Part shown: positions 2,114 through 15,718 of the stretch, piece by piece
How the letters are laid out: every line of letters begins with the position of its first letter
Numbering within the stretch: position 1 is the stretch's first letter
IMG/VR virus record: IMGVR_UViG_3300032284_003024
Span: 1-22,791 of that record
Length of the DNA stretch: 22,791 bases
DNA from: a virus
Direction: 5' to 3' (one strand)
Notes under the pieces: generated by a model
The model's database searches: none
What the model was told of the DNA's origin: nothing
Seen by the model: only the letters and a program-made list of their open reading frames with translations
Made by a program: the position numbers and the translations under genes

Positions 2114-2190
2114 GGGGACGTAGTCCAACAGGAAGAGACAAAGGACTTAAAATCCTTGTGTTGTGGGTTCGAATCCCACCGTCCCTACCA
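2114..2190 (+). tRNA. tRNA-Leu (TAA)
   Basis: Acceptor GGGGACG/CGTCCCT, anticodon stem AAGGA/TCCTT with loop CTTAAAA (anticodon TAA), T arm GTGGG-TTCGAAT-CCCAC, discriminator A and encoded CCA. The variable region is only 5 nt, whereas bacterial Leu tRNAs are normally class II with a long arm. It closely resembles the tRNA at 4528 (same acceptor 3' strand and variable loop), so the two are probably duplicates. The stop codon of the antisense endonuclease gene lies inside its 3' end. Confidence 0.85.
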
Positions 2191-2784
2191 ACTTTTAATA
2201 CGATCTAATAGCTCCTGATAACTAATAGAAGATTTAGATCCTTTTTTACAATTTTTCTCATTTAACATTATTTCACAATTAGCAGGATGAGCGATAATAT
2301 TTGGATCAATTTTATTTTTATATCCGTCAGAAATGCTATACATATGATCCAAAACAACACCCACAATTATGTTTTTATTGGGACAATACATTTTATATTC
2401 AGCTAATAATTCATTGCCTTTGATTTTTAATAAATCATAATCAGTCCATTTTTTAAAAGCACAATTTCTTTTATAAGTTTCTTTCTCCCTTGTTCTTGCT
2501 TTACCTGTAATCTTTAAAGTTTTTAATAAACTTTCTCGTTGTTTCCTACGACTTGTTTTATCTCTTATTTTATTTGTGTAAATAGCACTACACGATTGGC
2601 AACAAAACTTTTTTTGATCTTTGTCAAGTGAAATTCCACAATTTACGCAATGAGTATGATATTCATATTTTCGTCTGTATGTAGTCGAACAAACTGGGGA
2701 ACAAAACTTTTGTTTTTTCCTTTTAGCAATAACTGAAAAATTTTGCTTACAATGTAAACATTCTTTATTATATAAAGTACCCAT
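2185..2784 (-). CDS. HNH homing endonuclease with N-terminal zinc motifs
   Basis: 199 residues. The N-terminus has paired CxxC-type motifs (C9/C12, C28/C32, then C46/C49, C61-C65), typical of DNA-binding zinc ribbons in homing enzymes. Residues 105-199 form an HNH nuclease of the DHxxS...P...NC...N..K type (D146-H147, N169, N178, K181). The same block recurs in the gene at 4619. The start ATG has GGAG upstream (CGGAGATAGGTA). The stop codon overlaps the 3' end of tRNA-Leu by six bases, so gene and tRNA converge with no gap. Homing enzymes cut cognate alleles lacking them and spread by repair; the target is probably the tRNA locus, by position only. Confidence 0.85.
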   Translation of the reverse strand: MGTLYNKECLHCKQNFSVIAKRKKQKFCSPVCSTTYRRKYEYHTHCVNCGISLDKDQKKFCCQSCSAIYTNKIRDKTSRRKQRESLLKTLKITGKARTREKETYKRNCAFKKWTDYDLLKIKGNELLAEYKMYCPNKNIIVGVVLDHMYSISDGYKNKIDPNIIAHPANCEIMLNEKNCKKGSKSSISYQELLDRIKSW

Positions 2785-2796
2785 TACCTATCTCCG

Positions 2797-2877
2797 AATA
2801 AATAAATTGTGGGACAGCCCGGATCTCCGAACTGGGTTTTTGATTGCGCGAACAATCAAATCACCACAATATTTATT
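2797..2877 (-). ncRNA. Structured 5' leader of the HNH gene (motif copy A)
   Basis: A long two-part outer stem (2797-2804 with 2870-2877; TTGTGG 2807-2812 with CCACAA 2864-2869) encloses two hairpins: CCC-GG-ATCT-CC-GAACT-GGG (2818-2836) and GATTG-CGCGAA-CAATC (2842-2857). The copy at 15592-15673 keeps the fold while changing the paired bases. The ribosome site of the HNH gene begins directly after the stem on the minus strand. Confidence 0.7.
2870..2877 (-). promoter_or_regulatory. Late promoter for the HNH gene (AATAAATA)
   Basis: Read on the minus strand this is TATAATAAATA, directly before the structured leader, and it forms the outer arm of the leader's inverted repeat. A late transcript starting here would lack part of that arm, whereas read-through RNA would contain the whole hairpin. 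Confidence 0.5.
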
Positions 2878-4618: not shown

Positions 4619-5404
4619 TTATGAAAGCTTTTTCTTTTTAGTTAAACCTTGTCTCCATCCGTTTGGAATATGAGAATTTTTCAAAACTCTCATATTTTTA
4701 ACTCCGTTGGTTATATTCATATATTTTTTATTGGTTTGTCTTATTTTTTCTCTAGTGGAAAGAGATTTTGGCAAACGAATGGATACATTTTCAATTACTG
4801 TAAAGATATTTTTGTTTATTCTTTCTTGCAACATATCTAAAGTAATGCAAGATTTATCACCTTTTTGAGAATTTTCACTATTGCTTATGAATCGACAATT
4901 CATAAAATGAGAAATTATTGTAGGATCAATTTTATTACGCCATCCATATTCTACAGATACCATATGGTCTCGACAAACACCATTTTGATTTTTGGTTGGA
5001 TGAAATATTCCCCATGATAATAAAAGGTCATAACCGGGTATTTGAGGCATGCTATATGGATCAAATTGAAAAGCACATCTTTTTTTATACTGCGCTTTTT
5101 CATCGGTTAGTGATCTGCCAGTTTTTTTATACCAGTTATTAATGGCATCTTTGGTAGATAACAGTTTCATGTTAAGACATTTTTTCAAAAACATTCCAAA
5201 ATCAGAATATTCGATGCCATATTCTTTTTTAATATCAGACGGTGACATTCCTGATTTCAAGTGTTCTTGAAAAATTGCCCTGACTTTACTAACATGTTCT
5301 TCTGTCACTAATATATTTGATTTTAGATTTAAAACATTAACACAAAGTTTTATAAGTGCATGCTTCTTTTTTGGTACAAGTTTTTTCATATATGTATTTA
5401 TCAT
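4619..5404 (-). CDS. HNH homing endonuclease
   Basis: About 261 residues. The C-terminal two thirds share the HNH block of the gene at 2185: YKKRCAFQF, then CRDHMVSVEYGWRNKIDP, then NC...NSENSQKGDKS; the DH pair, the NC asparagine and the later asparagine are all present. The N-terminal part differs: no zinc motifs but a helical, probably DNA-binding region, followed by a basic tail rich in Arg/Lys. The start is uncertain: ATG at 5404 and ATG at 5389 are both possible and neither has a ribosome site, because the flanking tRNA half begins four bases upstream. A late-promoter box (5395-5402) overlaps the start, so the late message may be leaderless or start at 5389. Confidence 0.8.
   Translation of the reverse strand: MINTYMKKLVPKKKHALIKLCVNVLNLKSNILVTEEHVSKVRAIFQEHLKSGMSPSDIKKEYGIEYSDFGMFLKKCLNMKLLSTKDAINNWYKKTGRSLTDEKAQYKKRCAFQFDPYSMPQIPGYDLLLSWGIFHPTKNQNGVCRDHMVSVEYGWRNKIDPTIISHFMNCRFISNSENSQKGDKSCITLDMLQERINKNIFTVIENVSIRLPKSLSTREKIRQTNKKYMNITNGVKNMRVLKNSHIPNGWRQGLTKKKKLS
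5395..5402 (-). promoter_or_regulatory. Late-promoter-like box overlapping the HNH start
   Basis: GATAAATA on the minus strand at the extreme 5' end of the HNH reading frame. Unlike the other endonuclease genes, no leader or ribosome site lies between the box and the gene. Confidence 0.4.
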
Positions 5405-5407
5405 CAA

Positions 5408-5474
5408 TGGATGATTTTTGTCTCAAAATCATTTGCTTCACAGCGTGGGGGTTCAAGTCCCTCCACCCGCACCA
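5408..5474 (+). pseudogene. 3' part of a split class II tRNA-Leu
   Basis: Contains an anticodon-like arm ATGATTTT...AAAATCAT with TCAAAA in the loop (Leu CAA-like), a short variable arm (GCT-TCAC-AGC), T arm GGGGG-TTCAAGT-CCCTC, acceptor CACCCGC, A and CCA. The TTCAAGTCCC context is typical of Leu tRNAs. The 5' half is missing locally; only GCGGGTG at 4517 matches. The anticodon loop is also several bases too long, so the gene is probably dead unless the parts are joined in trans. Confidence 0.65.
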
Positions 5475-5475
5475 A

Positions 5476-6018
5476 CTATTTTGGAACGAAAAGTATATTA
5501 AGGATTTTGTAATCCTTGCTTTTGTTTATTTCGATAATTGAGTATATAAGTTCAGCAACACTGTTAGGTGACATTTTTGCTGAATGTGTAACCTGTGCAA
5601 CACTGTCAGTATCAACATATCCTGGTCTAACAATAATTATTGTGGGATAACCTGGTATATTTTGCATTTGTTTAGCAGCAGACTCCAAGGCTAGTTTTTC
5701 AATTTGATAAGGATGTGGCCATGTTTTGGTGGTTTCTGTACTTTGACTACCAATTATCACAATAGTTTTGTTAGTTTGTCCCTTGCATATTTGACAAATT
5801 TGATATAAAAGGCCAATTGAATTAAAGCCGAGATTTGCATTTAGCACTATTATATCATTTGTAAGAGATGCAATAACAAATTGGTCTCGTTCCAGCTGAG
5901 AAGATAAATCTTTGTTATTGCTGCGAGAAAATCCAGTTATTTCATAATTTCTTTGGCCAAAATACTCAGCTATTGCATGGCCAATACCACGACTATGTCC
6001 ACTTATTAAAATTTTCAT
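5476..6018 (-). CDS. Short-chain dehydrogenase/reductase (SDR)
   Basis: 180 residues, a compact SDR. The N-terminus has the dinucleotide-binding glycine motif GHSRGIG (7-13), a NANLG counterpart of the NNAG motif (60-64), a Ser in GSQS (about 91) and the catalytic YxxxK (Y104, K108), then the RPGYVDT segment after the active site. At 180 residues it is shorter than the usual 240-250 and lacks the usual C-terminal substrate lid. It would reduce or oxidise a small carbonyl/alcohol with NAD(P)(H); the substrate is unknown. It follows the kinase-like gene at 6037 on the same strand with an 18-base gap, so the two are likely co-transcribed. Confidence 0.85.
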   Translation of the reverse strand: MKILISGHSRGIGHAIAEYFGQRNYEITGFSRSNNKDLSSQLERDQFVIASLTNDIIVLNANLGFNSIGLLYQICQICKGQTNKTIVIIGSQSTETTKTWPHPYQIEKLALESAAKQMQNIPGYPTIIIVRPGYVDTDSVAQVTHSAKMSPNSVAELIYSIIEINKSKDYKILNILFVPK

Positions 6019-10626: not shown

Positions 10627-10775
10627 TGGGGAATCGTCTAATGGTAGGACCAGGGACTGGGTGAAAGTGTGCTATTCATACGCACATAGAACTAACATTA
10701 TGTTAGAGAGTGCAAATCTCAAATCACCAAAGATTGAATCCCTTTGTCTAGGTTCGAATCCTAGTTCCCCAGCCA
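10627..10775 (+). tRNA. tRNA-Gln (TTG) interrupted by a 75-nt intron-like insert
   Basis: Acceptor TGGGGAA (10627-10633) with TTCCCCA (10765-10771), discriminator G and encoded CCA, as in bacterial tRNA-Gln. D arm GTCT-AATGGTA-GGAC. Anticodon stem AGGGA (10652-10656) with TCCCT (10739-10743), T arm CTAGG-TTCGAAT-CCTAG. Removing 10659-10733 leaves the loop CTTTGAA with anticodon TTG, exactly canonical for Gln, and this is the only cut that does so. The interruption is therefore between positions 33 and 34. Confidence 0.85.
10659..10733 (+). ncRNA. 75-nt structured tRNA intron, cloverleaf-like
   Basis: By eye the insert forms a closing stem GGTGA (10660-10664) with TCACC (10724-10728), enclosing three hairpins: GTGTG...CGCAC (10667-10685), CTAACA-TTA-TGTTAG (10692-10706) and GAGA-GTGCAAA-TCTC (10706-10720, a T-arm-like 7-nt loop). 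This is a four-way junction, like a small tRNA. It has neither the size nor the ends of a group I intron (the last base is A, not G). The excision mechanism is unknown. Confidence 0.7.
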
Positions 10776-10777
10776 TT

Positions 10778-11461
10778 CTATTTTTCATATAACTGGTCTA
10801 TATTTTTAACTTTATATTTTTCTTTAACCCATTGAATATAAGGTTGTATTTTTATTTTATCAATTACATTGATATGAGAATTTTGCGCTAGTTTAGCTTT
10901 TGCTCTATTACACATATATCCTTTTATTTCGTACTCATCTGAATCAATAATAAAATCAGGAATATATTTTGATATTTTCCCTTTGTATTCATATGAATAT
11001 ATATTTTTTGATCTTTTTATATCAAAATTGTGATCTAGATGCCAAATTAAAAAAGCAAGCTCATATGTGCTATCACAGATAAAACCTTTATATTTTCCTT
11101 TACGCCCGCCGCCGTGCTTCTCCTGTATTAATGCATTAGTTGTAGCTAACTTTTTAAAACACTCACGCGAGCAGGTTTTTAATTTAGGTTTATTTTTTGT
11201 AGATCCACATACAGCACATACAGTAGAATTTCTTTTTATTATACCGCGTTCTATTTTTGTTTGTACTCCTCTTTTAATAGCAGTTGGGTCTTTCTGTACC
11301 CCTGTATAAAGTTCTTTCATACGTTTTTTAAATTCTATAGATCGAGGACCTCTACTATTTGCACAAGATTTACTGCAATAGGATTTAGTTCCCCATTTTG
11401 AATAGGCATTAAAAACTTTATTACACTTAAGACAGGGTTGGTAAATAGATTTGCTGATCAT
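10778..11461 (-). CDS. Homing endonuclease of PD-(D/E)XK fold with zinc motifs
   Basis: 227 residues. N-terminal paired cysteines (C10/C13, C29/C33; then C82/C85, C97/C101) form two likely zinc ribbons. The C-terminal domain has a conserved Glu (STYE, about 134), then YIPDF with D169 and YEIKG with E178 and K180: a PD-(D/E)XK nuclease site. PD-(D/E)XK homing enzymes are known from tRNA introns (I-Ssp6803I in a tRNA-fMet intron). The gene ends two bases after the CCA of tRNA-Gln on the opposite strand. The ATG has GAGGA upstream, a structured leader and a late promoter. Confidence 0.8.
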   Translation of the reverse strand: MISKSIYQPCLKCNKVFNAYSKWGTKSYCSKSCANSRGPRSIEFKKRMKELYTGVQKDPTAIKRGVQTKIERGIIKRNSTVCAVCGSTKNKPKLKTCSRECFKKLATTNALIQEKHGGGRKGKYKGFICDSTYELAFLIWHLDHNFDIKRSKNIYSYEYKGKISKYIPDFIIDSDEYEIKGYMCNRAKAKLAQNSHINVIDKIKIQPYIQWVKEKYKVKNIDQLYEK

Positions 11462-11480
11462 GAATTTTCCTCATATTAGA

Positions 11481-11510
11481 GCGATTGGAGTTGGCAGACT
11501 CGCGAATCGC
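11481..11510 (-). ncRNA. Hairpin leader of the PD-(D/E)XK endonuclease gene
   Basis: On the minus strand GCGATT...AATCGC (11505-11510 / 11481-11486) encloses GAGT-CTGCCA-ACTC. It lies between the late promoter and the ribosome site. The fold is simpler than, and unlike, the shared leader of the two other endonuclease genes. Confidence 0.55.
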
Positions 11511-11515
11511 ATTTT

Positions 11516-11523
11516 TATTTATC
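11516..11523 (-). promoter_or_regulatory. Late promoter (GATAAATA) for the endonuclease gene
   Basis: Minus-strand GATAAATA, six bases before the leader hairpin; same box as at 4438 and 5395. Confidence 0.55.
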
Positions 11524-11570
11524 TAGACATACACATCTATTCGATGTAAACTAATAACAATATCTGTATG

Positions 11571-12563: not shown

Positions 12564-12571
12564 AATAAATA
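12564..12571 (+). promoter_or_regulatory. Late promoter (AATAAATA)
   Basis: TTAATAAATA, 25 bases before the structural gene at 12596, followed by an AGAGGGA ribosome site. Confidence 0.55.
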
Positions 12572-14646: not shown

Positions 14647-14703
14647 GCTCTCGTGGTCCAATGGATGGGCACTTTATTGTTTTAGATGTACATGTTATTA
14701 GAG
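14647..14703 (+). pseudogene. 5' half of an interrupted tRNA
   Basis: Acceptor-like GCTCTCG, D arm GTCC-AATGGAT-GGGC, then anticodon-type stem CTTTA (14672-14676) with TAGAG (14699-14703) around a 22-nt loop. Flanking GTT repeats in this loop would allow a 15-nt excision leaving TTGTTAT. The T arm and 3' acceptor are about 990 bases downstream at 15691-15718; the acceptor strands match at 6 of 7 positions. The endonuclease gene lies between. Confidence 0.55.
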
Positions 14704-14705
14704 TA

Positions 14706-15576
14706 TTAACAACTATATAAAACATTAGATAATAAACTTTGTTTAATATTATCTCTTTTATGCTTGTTATTCCATTCTTTTACTTTTATTCGTATGATTT
14801 GTATGTTATGAACCCTGTTCATCCATTCATCACGAATAGTATCTCGTTCTATTTGTTCAACTCGTTCATGATGACTGCCATCAAGTTCAATATTTAAGTT
14901 AAGTTTTGGAAACCAAAAATCCATAATATAAGAAGTGTTCTTTTCATCATTGTACAATGTATAATTTAATGCATAATAATCGTCATTTTTTATATAACCA
15001 ATAGACATTAACCATTCATCAAAACATGTTTCAACATAATTTAGTTTTCCTTTACGAATCCAATTAAATGTTCCGGCATTATCTTTAAGATATTGAATCC
15101 TTGCAGTTCTGATTATTTGATTGCAACAAACTGTTGAGCATGTTTTTCTAATCGTTAATGAGTCAAACGTATTTTGACACGACACACACTTTAATTTATG
15201 AATAATTTTTACTTTTTGTTGTGTTTTTGAAATAGATTTTTTGTTTGTATGGTAGTACAATTTCACACTATTTGATATTTTTAGCCTGCTTTTAATAGAT
15301 TTAACTTTACCTGTATTATTAAATGAACTAGAGCAGGAAGAAGAACAAAATTTATTTTTTTTCTTGCTGAAAGGTATGATATTTTTATATTGTTTACACA
15401 AAATAGGACATTTCAAATAACGTTCTTCGTTTAATTTGCGATTATGGTTAGCTTTCTCTCTATAAACAATACTGCTATTTGCAGCAGAGCACGACAGTGA
15501 ACAAAATTTACCTTTGCTGCCAGATTTTGGCATAAAAATAATATTACATTGTGCACATATAGATGATTTTTTTCAT
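14706..15576 (-). pseudogene. Vsr/DUF559-like homing endonuclease with an A7 frameshift near its start
   Basis: The open frame 14706-15533 begins at an internal Met. Upstream, an ATG at 15576 with CGGAG at proper spacing is followed by seven As (15567-15573 on the plus strand); with six As the frame would read MKKSSICAQCNIIFMPK and run into the downstream frame, restoring a first CxxC motif. So the natural gene is about 289 residues. Domains: several zinc-ribbon pairs (CSLSC, CPILC, CSSSC, CVSC, CSTVC) and a C-terminal Vsr-like nuclease: E168/E173, MDFWFP (D205), NIELDGSHH (E216, D218, H221). The gene may be broken, expressed by slippage, or affected by a sequencing error. Confidence 0.75.
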
Positions 15577-15591
15577 TTATAATCTCCGAGT

Positions 15592-15673
15592 AATAAATAT
15601 ATCTGTGGGACAGCCCCGACTTCGAGCTGGGTTTTGATTTGTTGCATCAAATCAATTACCACTTATATTTATT
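15592..15673 (-). ncRNA. Structured 5' leader of the Vsr-like endonuclease gene (motif copy B)
   Basis: Same architecture as copy A: outer stem AATAAATATA (15592-15601) with TATATTTATT (15664-15673), GTGG/CCAC (15605-15608 / 15659-15662), the invariant GTGGGACAGCCC, the hairpin CCC-CG-ACTT-CG-AGCT-GGG, and GATTTG-TTGCAT-CAAATC (15636-15653). Paired positions change in a compensatory way relative to copy A while the loops differ freely. Confidence 0.7.
15666..15673 (-). promoter_or_regulatory. Late promoter (AATAAATA) for the Vsr-like gene
   Basis: Minus-strand TTTAATAAATA forms the outer arm of the leader inverted repeat, as in copy A. Confidence 0.5.
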
Positions 15674-15690
15674 AAATTAGTCTGATTTAT

Positions 15691-15718
15691 ATAGGTTCGA
15701 GTCCTACCAAGAGCTCCA
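15691..15718 (+). pseudogene. 3' part of the interrupted tRNA (T arm and acceptor)
   Basis: T arm ATAGG-TTCGAGT-CCTAC (four good pairs), acceptor strand CAAGAGC pairing with GCTCTCG at 14647, discriminator T and CCA. It lies just downstream of leader copy B. A T discriminator is usual for Gly or Cys tRNAs, but no matching anticodon is visible. Confidence 0.6.

Follow-up and report, generated by a model that had tools for sequence, protein, structure and literature searches.

A covarying RNA family opposite phage nuclease genes, with a loop matching the neighbor's translation start, as a probable antisense cassette

The window analyzed here is a complete IMG/VR virus record (IMGVR_UViG_3300032284_003024; 22,791 nt), covered in full, and it holds two copies, A and B, of a small structured element. 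At copy A, the 3′ end of a tRNA-Leu(taa) gene (2114 to 2190, plus strand) overlaps the stop of gene A (2185 to 2784, minus strand), which encodes 199 aa with a treble-clef zinc finger and a C terminus that is HNH-like by eye. Next to the start of gene A, a plus-strand late-type promoter box, AATAAATA (2797 to 2804; called from sequence and from box statistics over 53 elements), lies 4 nt before the first G of RNA A, whose folded core is a three-way junction (2809 to 2867, plus strand; models R1 and R2, covariation). The P2 loop carries the stretch ATCTCCGAA (2823 to 2831, plus strand), a 9-bp match to the gene A ribosome-binding site; its target in the mRNA, TTCGGAGAT (2790 to 2798, minus strand; sequence and loop/TIR scoring), includes the Shine-Dalgarno sequence. 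An opposing AATAAATA box (2870 to 2877, minus strand; box statistics) is the probable gene A promoter.

Copy B sits between the two halves of one tRNA, the 5′ half to the left of the cassette (14647 to 14680, plus strand; right end approximate) and the 3′ half to its right (15690 to 15718, plus strand; left end approximate). Gene B (14706 to 15576, minus strand) is DUF559/PvuRts1I-like. The late-type box of RNA B, AATAAATA (15592 to 15599, plus strand; sequence and box statistics), lies 5 nt before the RNA's first G, and the folded core follows (15605 to 15662, plus strand; models R1 and R2). Here the loop stretch CTTCGAG (15620 to 15626, plus strand) forms seven pairs, one of them a wobble, with CTCGGAG at the gene B ribosome-binding site (15584 to 15590, minus strand; sequence and loop/TIR scoring), and the opposing box AATAAATA (15666 to 15673, minus strand; box statistics) is the probable gene B promoter. 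Gene B opens with ATG (15576 to 15574) followed by seven A (together 15567 to 15576, minus strand), one base out of frame with a 275-aa zinc-finger ORF (14706 to 15533), so that it may be a pseudogene, hold a slippage site, or reflect a sequencing error. Rejoining the tRNA halves failed to locate the insertion point, since 199 of 1350 cut-point pairs gave a tRNA call.

Both copies stand where the original prediction had put them, as confirmed by re-reading the window sequence, and their shared 12-mer, GTGGGACAGCCC, has exactly two matches in the window (eight further matches, each with three mismatches, are at about chance level). The predicted interval ran from the plus-strand box to the minus-strand box at each copy; the folded RNA proper is narrower. 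Likeness between the copies is limited to paired and junction bases and the neighboring genes differ, which rules out a recent duplication with its even similarity. Elsewhere in the window, ATAAATA boxes precede other ORFs on both strands (e.g., at 12564 on the plus strand, 18625 on the plus strand, and 4445 on the minus strand), as expected of late promoters. A minus-strand zinc-finger ORF (10778 to 11461) is preceded by an ATAAATA box and by a hairpin of another kind (11440 to 11530), and lacks this RNA.

Further members were sought by pattern scans of IMG/VR viral contigs, with covariance models R1 (built from 28 sequences) and R2, and by whole-record scans, yielding a working set of 57 elements from 37 virus records. 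Identical copies were counted once (the L032 element, for example, recurs on 14 more contigs), and 47 distinct P2 loops were obtained with L021 and L376 set aside. Copies A and B scored 71.3 and 71.5 bits with R1 and 68.3 and 70.4 bits with R2, scores that are not independent because both copies are members of both models. At least four members were added by R2 and by a scan on the 3′ half alone; the latter gave few new members among the matches listed, pointing to a close family of limited size in the IMG/VR collection. A 543-kb record (G005) holds 6 copies, and an 82-kb record (G034) holds 8 above 27 bits. Loci dropped before counting as chance or doubtful were L118 (37.0 bits, without a divergent gene start), L127 (26.1), L137, L138, L094, L174, L412 (24.3 bits), L605, L580, and L540. 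Also dropped were a 127-nt window match (5638 to 5764; 18 bits with R1, absent with R2 unfiltered), G034:13586, G033:79303, and G015:14966 (20.3, 17.8, and 15.2 bits), other R1 matches below 30 bits, and pattern hits lacking the fold. Model scoring covered all but viral loci L449 to L500, genome loci after L608, and 14 new pattern-scan loci, the last of which were read by eye only.

At the gathering threshold, Rfam 15 matched only tRNA-type families in the window and eight other loci, and a permissive search of copies A and B returned only subthreshold hits, in line with the original statement that no known ribozyme or riboswitch class was recognized. Sixteen distinct annotated phage records, scanned whole (8 with R1 and 11 with R2, 3 in common), held no good match, the best isolated-phage score being 15.2 bits (E value, 0.05) in Det7. 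When four elements were compared with 50,697 phage records by blastn, the hits were all short and partial. Among at least 119 pattern stretches in cellular genome contigs, the best of 100 scored with R1 reached 23.9 bits, which was taken as chance. The RNA family is not described in the CC-licensed titles and abstract openings on RNA control of homing endonucleases, HNH proteins, or TnpB, a sample that leaves its absence from the literature unproven.

On the plus strand of the window, the order of the fold is GUGGGACA-P2-P3-AUUACCAC. P1 is GUGG/CCAC, its second pair being U-A in 38 and C-G in 12 of 50 sequences; P2 is AGCCC/GGGUU, usually AGCCC plus two bases with CUGGGUU; and P3 is a hairpin of 8 pairs, all of which covary. 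The compensatory changes claimed from two copies hold across 28 aligned members (MAFFT), in which 95.3% of cells are paired and 100 cells change on both sides (31.1 ± 5.3 in shuffles, with statistics that ignore kinship); sliding the partner by 1 to 3 columns reduced pairing to 33 to 50%. Over 50 sequences, in an alignment fitted to the model and therefore leaning toward it, 97.0% of cells are paired and two-sided changes occur at 15 of 19 pairs. An outer stem with the two end boxes as its arms was set aside because the boxes vary independently by eye. Covariation and differing neighbors thus bear out the view of a selected RNA structure common to genes of different nuclease families, and the compensatory changes across independent members mark the element as a structured RNA family of its own, outside Rfam.

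The original prediction made this structure a sense leader of the nuclease genes. That strand is probably wrong: wobble pairs, promoter spacing, and tRNA orientation favor the other, from which the P2 loop is complementary to the neighbor's ribosome-binding site. An excess of G-U over A-C tells the strands apart because both classes swap on the opposite strand; outside one P2 pair, itself G-U in 47 of 50 sequences, we counted 44 G-U and 11 A-C cells (50 sequences), or 27 and 8 in the 28-sequence set. The search pattern fixed part of the P2 3′ side, but this cannot account for a preference of the free partner for T (column 16: 11 T, 1 A, and 0 G). Among 53 elements, a box resembling TATAAATA lies upstream of the RNA at a distance of 5 nt (23 elements), 4 nt (11 elements), or 6 or 7 nt (12 elements). 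From the T4 late TATAAATA, placed at −13 to −6 in an excerpt of PMC1524935, transcription is predicted to start on or at most 2 nt from the first G of GUGGG, as in 46 of the 53. Match and spacing of the RNA-strand box over these 53 elements are compatible with a putative late promoter. For the opposite-strand box, the distance is 3 nt in 34 of 53 elements, which would place the start of its transcript inside P1. Folding energy gives no clear preference, the RNA strand having the lower value in 34 of 53 elements. The neighboring tRNAs share the RNA strand without exception (24/24 on the nuclease side and 14/14 downstream). The functional RNA is therefore most likely the plus strand, antisense to the nuclease gene.

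The P2 loop varies from locus to locus and is complementary to the mRNA of the adjacent opposite gene at or just before its start codon, in the translation initiation region (TIR). Against its own TIR, the loop had a mean score of 19.46 (14.56 ± 0.35 permuted, with a maximum of 15.92 in 10,000; n = 51), and the longest exact complement averaged 7.43 nt over the 47 distinct loops (5.12 ± 0.14 permuted; maximum, 5.68). Controls were at chance: P2 in the sense orientation (4.51 versus 4.41), P3 against the TIR (5.06 versus 5.15), P2 against the other flank on the gene strand (4.72 versus 4.62) or the RNA strand (4.70 versus 4.71), and P2 against early coding sequence (4.47 versus 4.40). The match is not a Shine-Dalgarno effect only, because the 24 loci without GGAG/CTCC still gave 7.04 versus 5.05 (7.83 versus 5.41 for the 23 loci with it). 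Mean duplex energy was −14.89, against −11.49 ± 0.36 permuted, and the own TIR ranked first among 46 in only 4 cases because TIRs resemble each other. Loop stretches are mostly unpaired (0.65 versus 0.32 elsewhere). A wobble bias in loop/TIR mismatches was not clean, with 8 of 10 flank-C mismatches C to T and nearly all mismatches at match edges.

At copy A, AUCUCCGAA can pair with UUCGGAGAU (9 bp; score, 22.0), equaled by none of 50 other TIRs; copy B is weak on its own because its score of 16.5 is reached by 24% of other TIRs. Other loops match over 9 bp (L007), 10 bp (L017), and 12 pairs including wobble (L040). The paired stretch is typically at −14 to −7 relative to the AUG, which it covers in L368, L369 (TnpB), and L372; a fourth flagged duplex, at L063, proved an artefact of an ATG upstream of the real start. 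The TnpB genes at L368 and L369, both in the 543-kb record, lack a clear Shine-Dalgarno sequence, and the loop matches the start codon itself. Four members came to light with R2 only after the rule had been noticed. Two of them, L673 (19.0, other TIRs averaging 14.6) and L733 (18.5, other TIRs averaging 14.5), are independent and obey it; for each, 13% of the other TIRs reach as high a score. The remaining two, L686 and L716, nearly duplicate the L326 locus. The exceptions to TIR complementarity are L367:3560, whose loop has no TIR match, and L021 (3935 to 3995, minus strand) and L376 (1286 to 1347, plus strand), where a gene lies downstream on the RNA's own strand and the loop match is missing. 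These two, the latter with a gene that is GIY-YIG-like by eye, may represent another use of the same fold.

If the structure acted instead in the sense orientation, within the nuclease mRNA, its loop could be a Shine-Dalgarno decoy or standby copy. The opposing box is well placed for this (in 43 of 53 elements it agrees with TATAAATA at 7 or 8 positions) and folding energies are alike on both strands, and we still regard it as unlikely: the G-U and A-C counts and the start inside P1 speak against it, as does a match that exceeds the anti-ribosome bases and takes in the AUG at three loci. In L021 and L376, the fold is retained on what is then the sense strand of the gene, and the opposing box is poor (6 and 5 of 8 positions matched).

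An antisense RNA would face genes of several kinds, namely HNH, GIY-YIG, DUF559/PvuRts1I-like, TnsA-like, and TnpB. Among 40 adjacent ORFs of at least 90 aa, 19 matched a nuclease, homing, or TnpB model at a Pfam E value of 0.01, several of them below curated cut-offs: HNH (8), DUF559/PvuRts1I-like (2), TnsA-like (1), GIY-YIG (2), NUMOD3 alone (2), HNH_repeat (2), and TnpB (OrfB_IS605; 2). Six ORFs had only DUF723 or DUF7487 among informative models, and 15, gene A included, had zinc fingers only or no match. In the window, the two genes are indeed different, B having the DUF559/PvuRts1I-like match and A only a treble-clef model below its cut-off. By eye, L006 and L172, both unassigned, are GIY-YIG-like and L377 is HNH-like. 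L072 and L112 have nearly identical RNA and loop next to proteins with different N termini, which suggests that the RNA module may be exchanged between genes.

Of the 57 elements, at least 28 have a tRNA within 2 kb (a lower bound because many loci are short), and in 6 a tRNA follows downstream within 150 nt. The usual order is tRNA, reversed nuclease gene, RNA, and then further genes or tRNAs. On the 82-kb record (G034; L366 and L367), a long tRNA array is broken by eight cassettes, with every RNA in the tRNA orientation. Within the window, a plus-strand tRNA gene (10627 to 10775) has an insertion of about 75 nt in its anticodon loop (tRNA-His(gtg) by ARAGORN with introns, the anticodon depending on how the insertion is cut), and a plus-strand tRNA 3′ part with T arm and CCA end (5413 to 5472) adjoins a minus-strand ORF (4619 to 5407) without the RNA element. 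At L036 (8476 to 8545, plus strand), the neighbor's start codon is followed by two codons, a stop, and then a tRNA; the RNA there seems to have outlived its nuclease gene.

This setting would also suit an outward promoter or leader with which the cassette restores transcription of separated tRNAs and genes, antisense control being secondary or absent. The uniform tRNA orientation, the tRNAs close downstream, and the retention of the RNA at L036 would fit, and T4 endonuclease genes can carry promoters for neighbors (PMC2988022, excerpt). The conserved fold and the loop/TIR match would be left unexplained, and for 29 of 57 elements no tRNA turned up within 2 kb (many of the loci being short), making such a primary role quite improbable. 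Less probable again is a DNA-level operator, in which the nuclease, as its own repressor, would bind a direct repeat made up of the loop and TIR copies, as T4 I-TevI autorepresses at an operator resembling its homing site (PMC2988022, excerpt). It would need a new DNA specificity at each locus and yet always be centered on the TIR, and it explains neither the covarying P3 nor the G-U excess. Least probable is an RNA guide directing the nuclease to DNA, suggested by a variable, guide-like loop beside nucleases that include RNA-guided TnpB: the folds of the neighbors are unrelated, the site that the loop matches lies in the TIR of the same element and would amount to self-targeting, and TnpB guides derive from the 3′ side of the tnpB gene.

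We therefore return to the antisense strand and propose, with good though not full confidence, that the element is an antisense RNA cassette accompanying phage selfish nuclease genes. Transcription from a late-type promoter (ATAAATA) would begin at the first G of GUGGGACA and proceed away from the nuclease gene, giving an RNA of at least about 60 nt that folds into the three-way junction. The P2 loop would present about 6 to 12 nt complementary to the neighbor's TIR, usually the Shine-Dalgarno sequence and sometimes the AUG, and the pairing, as predicted from sequence comparison, would stop ribosome loading and keep the nuclease low, presumably to the phage's benefit. The fold would be the common scaffold and the loop the part rewritten at each locus. 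One difficulty is that an mRNA begun at the opposing box would contain a full complement to the RNA, and antisense pairing could then, strictly speaking, do without a dedicated loop match. The loop rule would be easiest to understand if fast pairing over a short stretch of the TIR is what counts, or if the RNA works in trans. Neither a 3′ end nor a terminator was identified for the RNA. On balance, if by a narrow measure, we favor the fuller picture of a portable antisense scaffold with a loop rewritten per locus, one chassis for unrelated homing endonuclease folds and TnpB, often in the tRNA regions of large phages, whose late transcript may serve downstream tRNAs too.

Type I toxin-antitoxin systems combine a small toxic protein with an unstable antisense RNA whose loss kills the cell; the likeness is in logic only, as the neighbors here are mostly nuclease-type proteins of 100 to 430 aa, not small peptides. 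The closest precedent is IS10 RNA-OUT, which blocks translation of its transposase (PMC5006887, excerpt). It too is antisense, on the opposite strand of a mobile element's nuclease gene, and pairs with the TIR, but it has 69 nt and pairs with its own target through a 35-nt perfect overlap (PMC5006887, excerpt), whereas in the present family the match is made by a short loop to a TIR that lies beyond the folded core, and one scaffold, with phage late-type promoters, faces many unrelated genes. Asr9 of ISPpu9 is likewise antisense to the 5′ untranslated region of a mobile element's nuclease gene; unlike our proposal, it favors expression, so that an antisense RNA need not repress, and the abstract describes no scaffold common to unrelated genes (PMC8450116). 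The nearest phage case, as far as the excerpt of PMC12197685 goes, is CfrI of cyanophage S-PM2, an antisense RNA beside the homing endonuclease gene F-CphI (printed F-ChpI); unlike the present RNA it is linked to psbA, and that excerpt gives no common fold or initiation-site loop. In T4, homing endonucleases are restrained by ribosome-binding-site hairpins, late promoters, and autorepression, which establishes the need for a low nuclease dose (PMC2988022, excerpt). There, as proposed here, RNA structure at the ribosome-binding site keeps translation low or late, but the T4 hairpins act in cis in the sense mRNA, whereas here the RNA would be antisense and the loop would do the matching (PMC2988022, excerpt).

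What is new, in the sequences compared, is that the P2 loop complements the neighboring gene's ribosome-binding site or start codon and varies between loci as that gene does. How selfish nucleases keep their dose harmless to the phage is an old question, answered mostly from T4, gene by gene. If the proposal is true, unrelated nucleases would be controlled in one common way, by an RNA whose target loop can be exchanged, and nature would have provided a compact antisense scaffold open to re-targeting, in which a change of about 8 nt in the loop should redirect the RNA.
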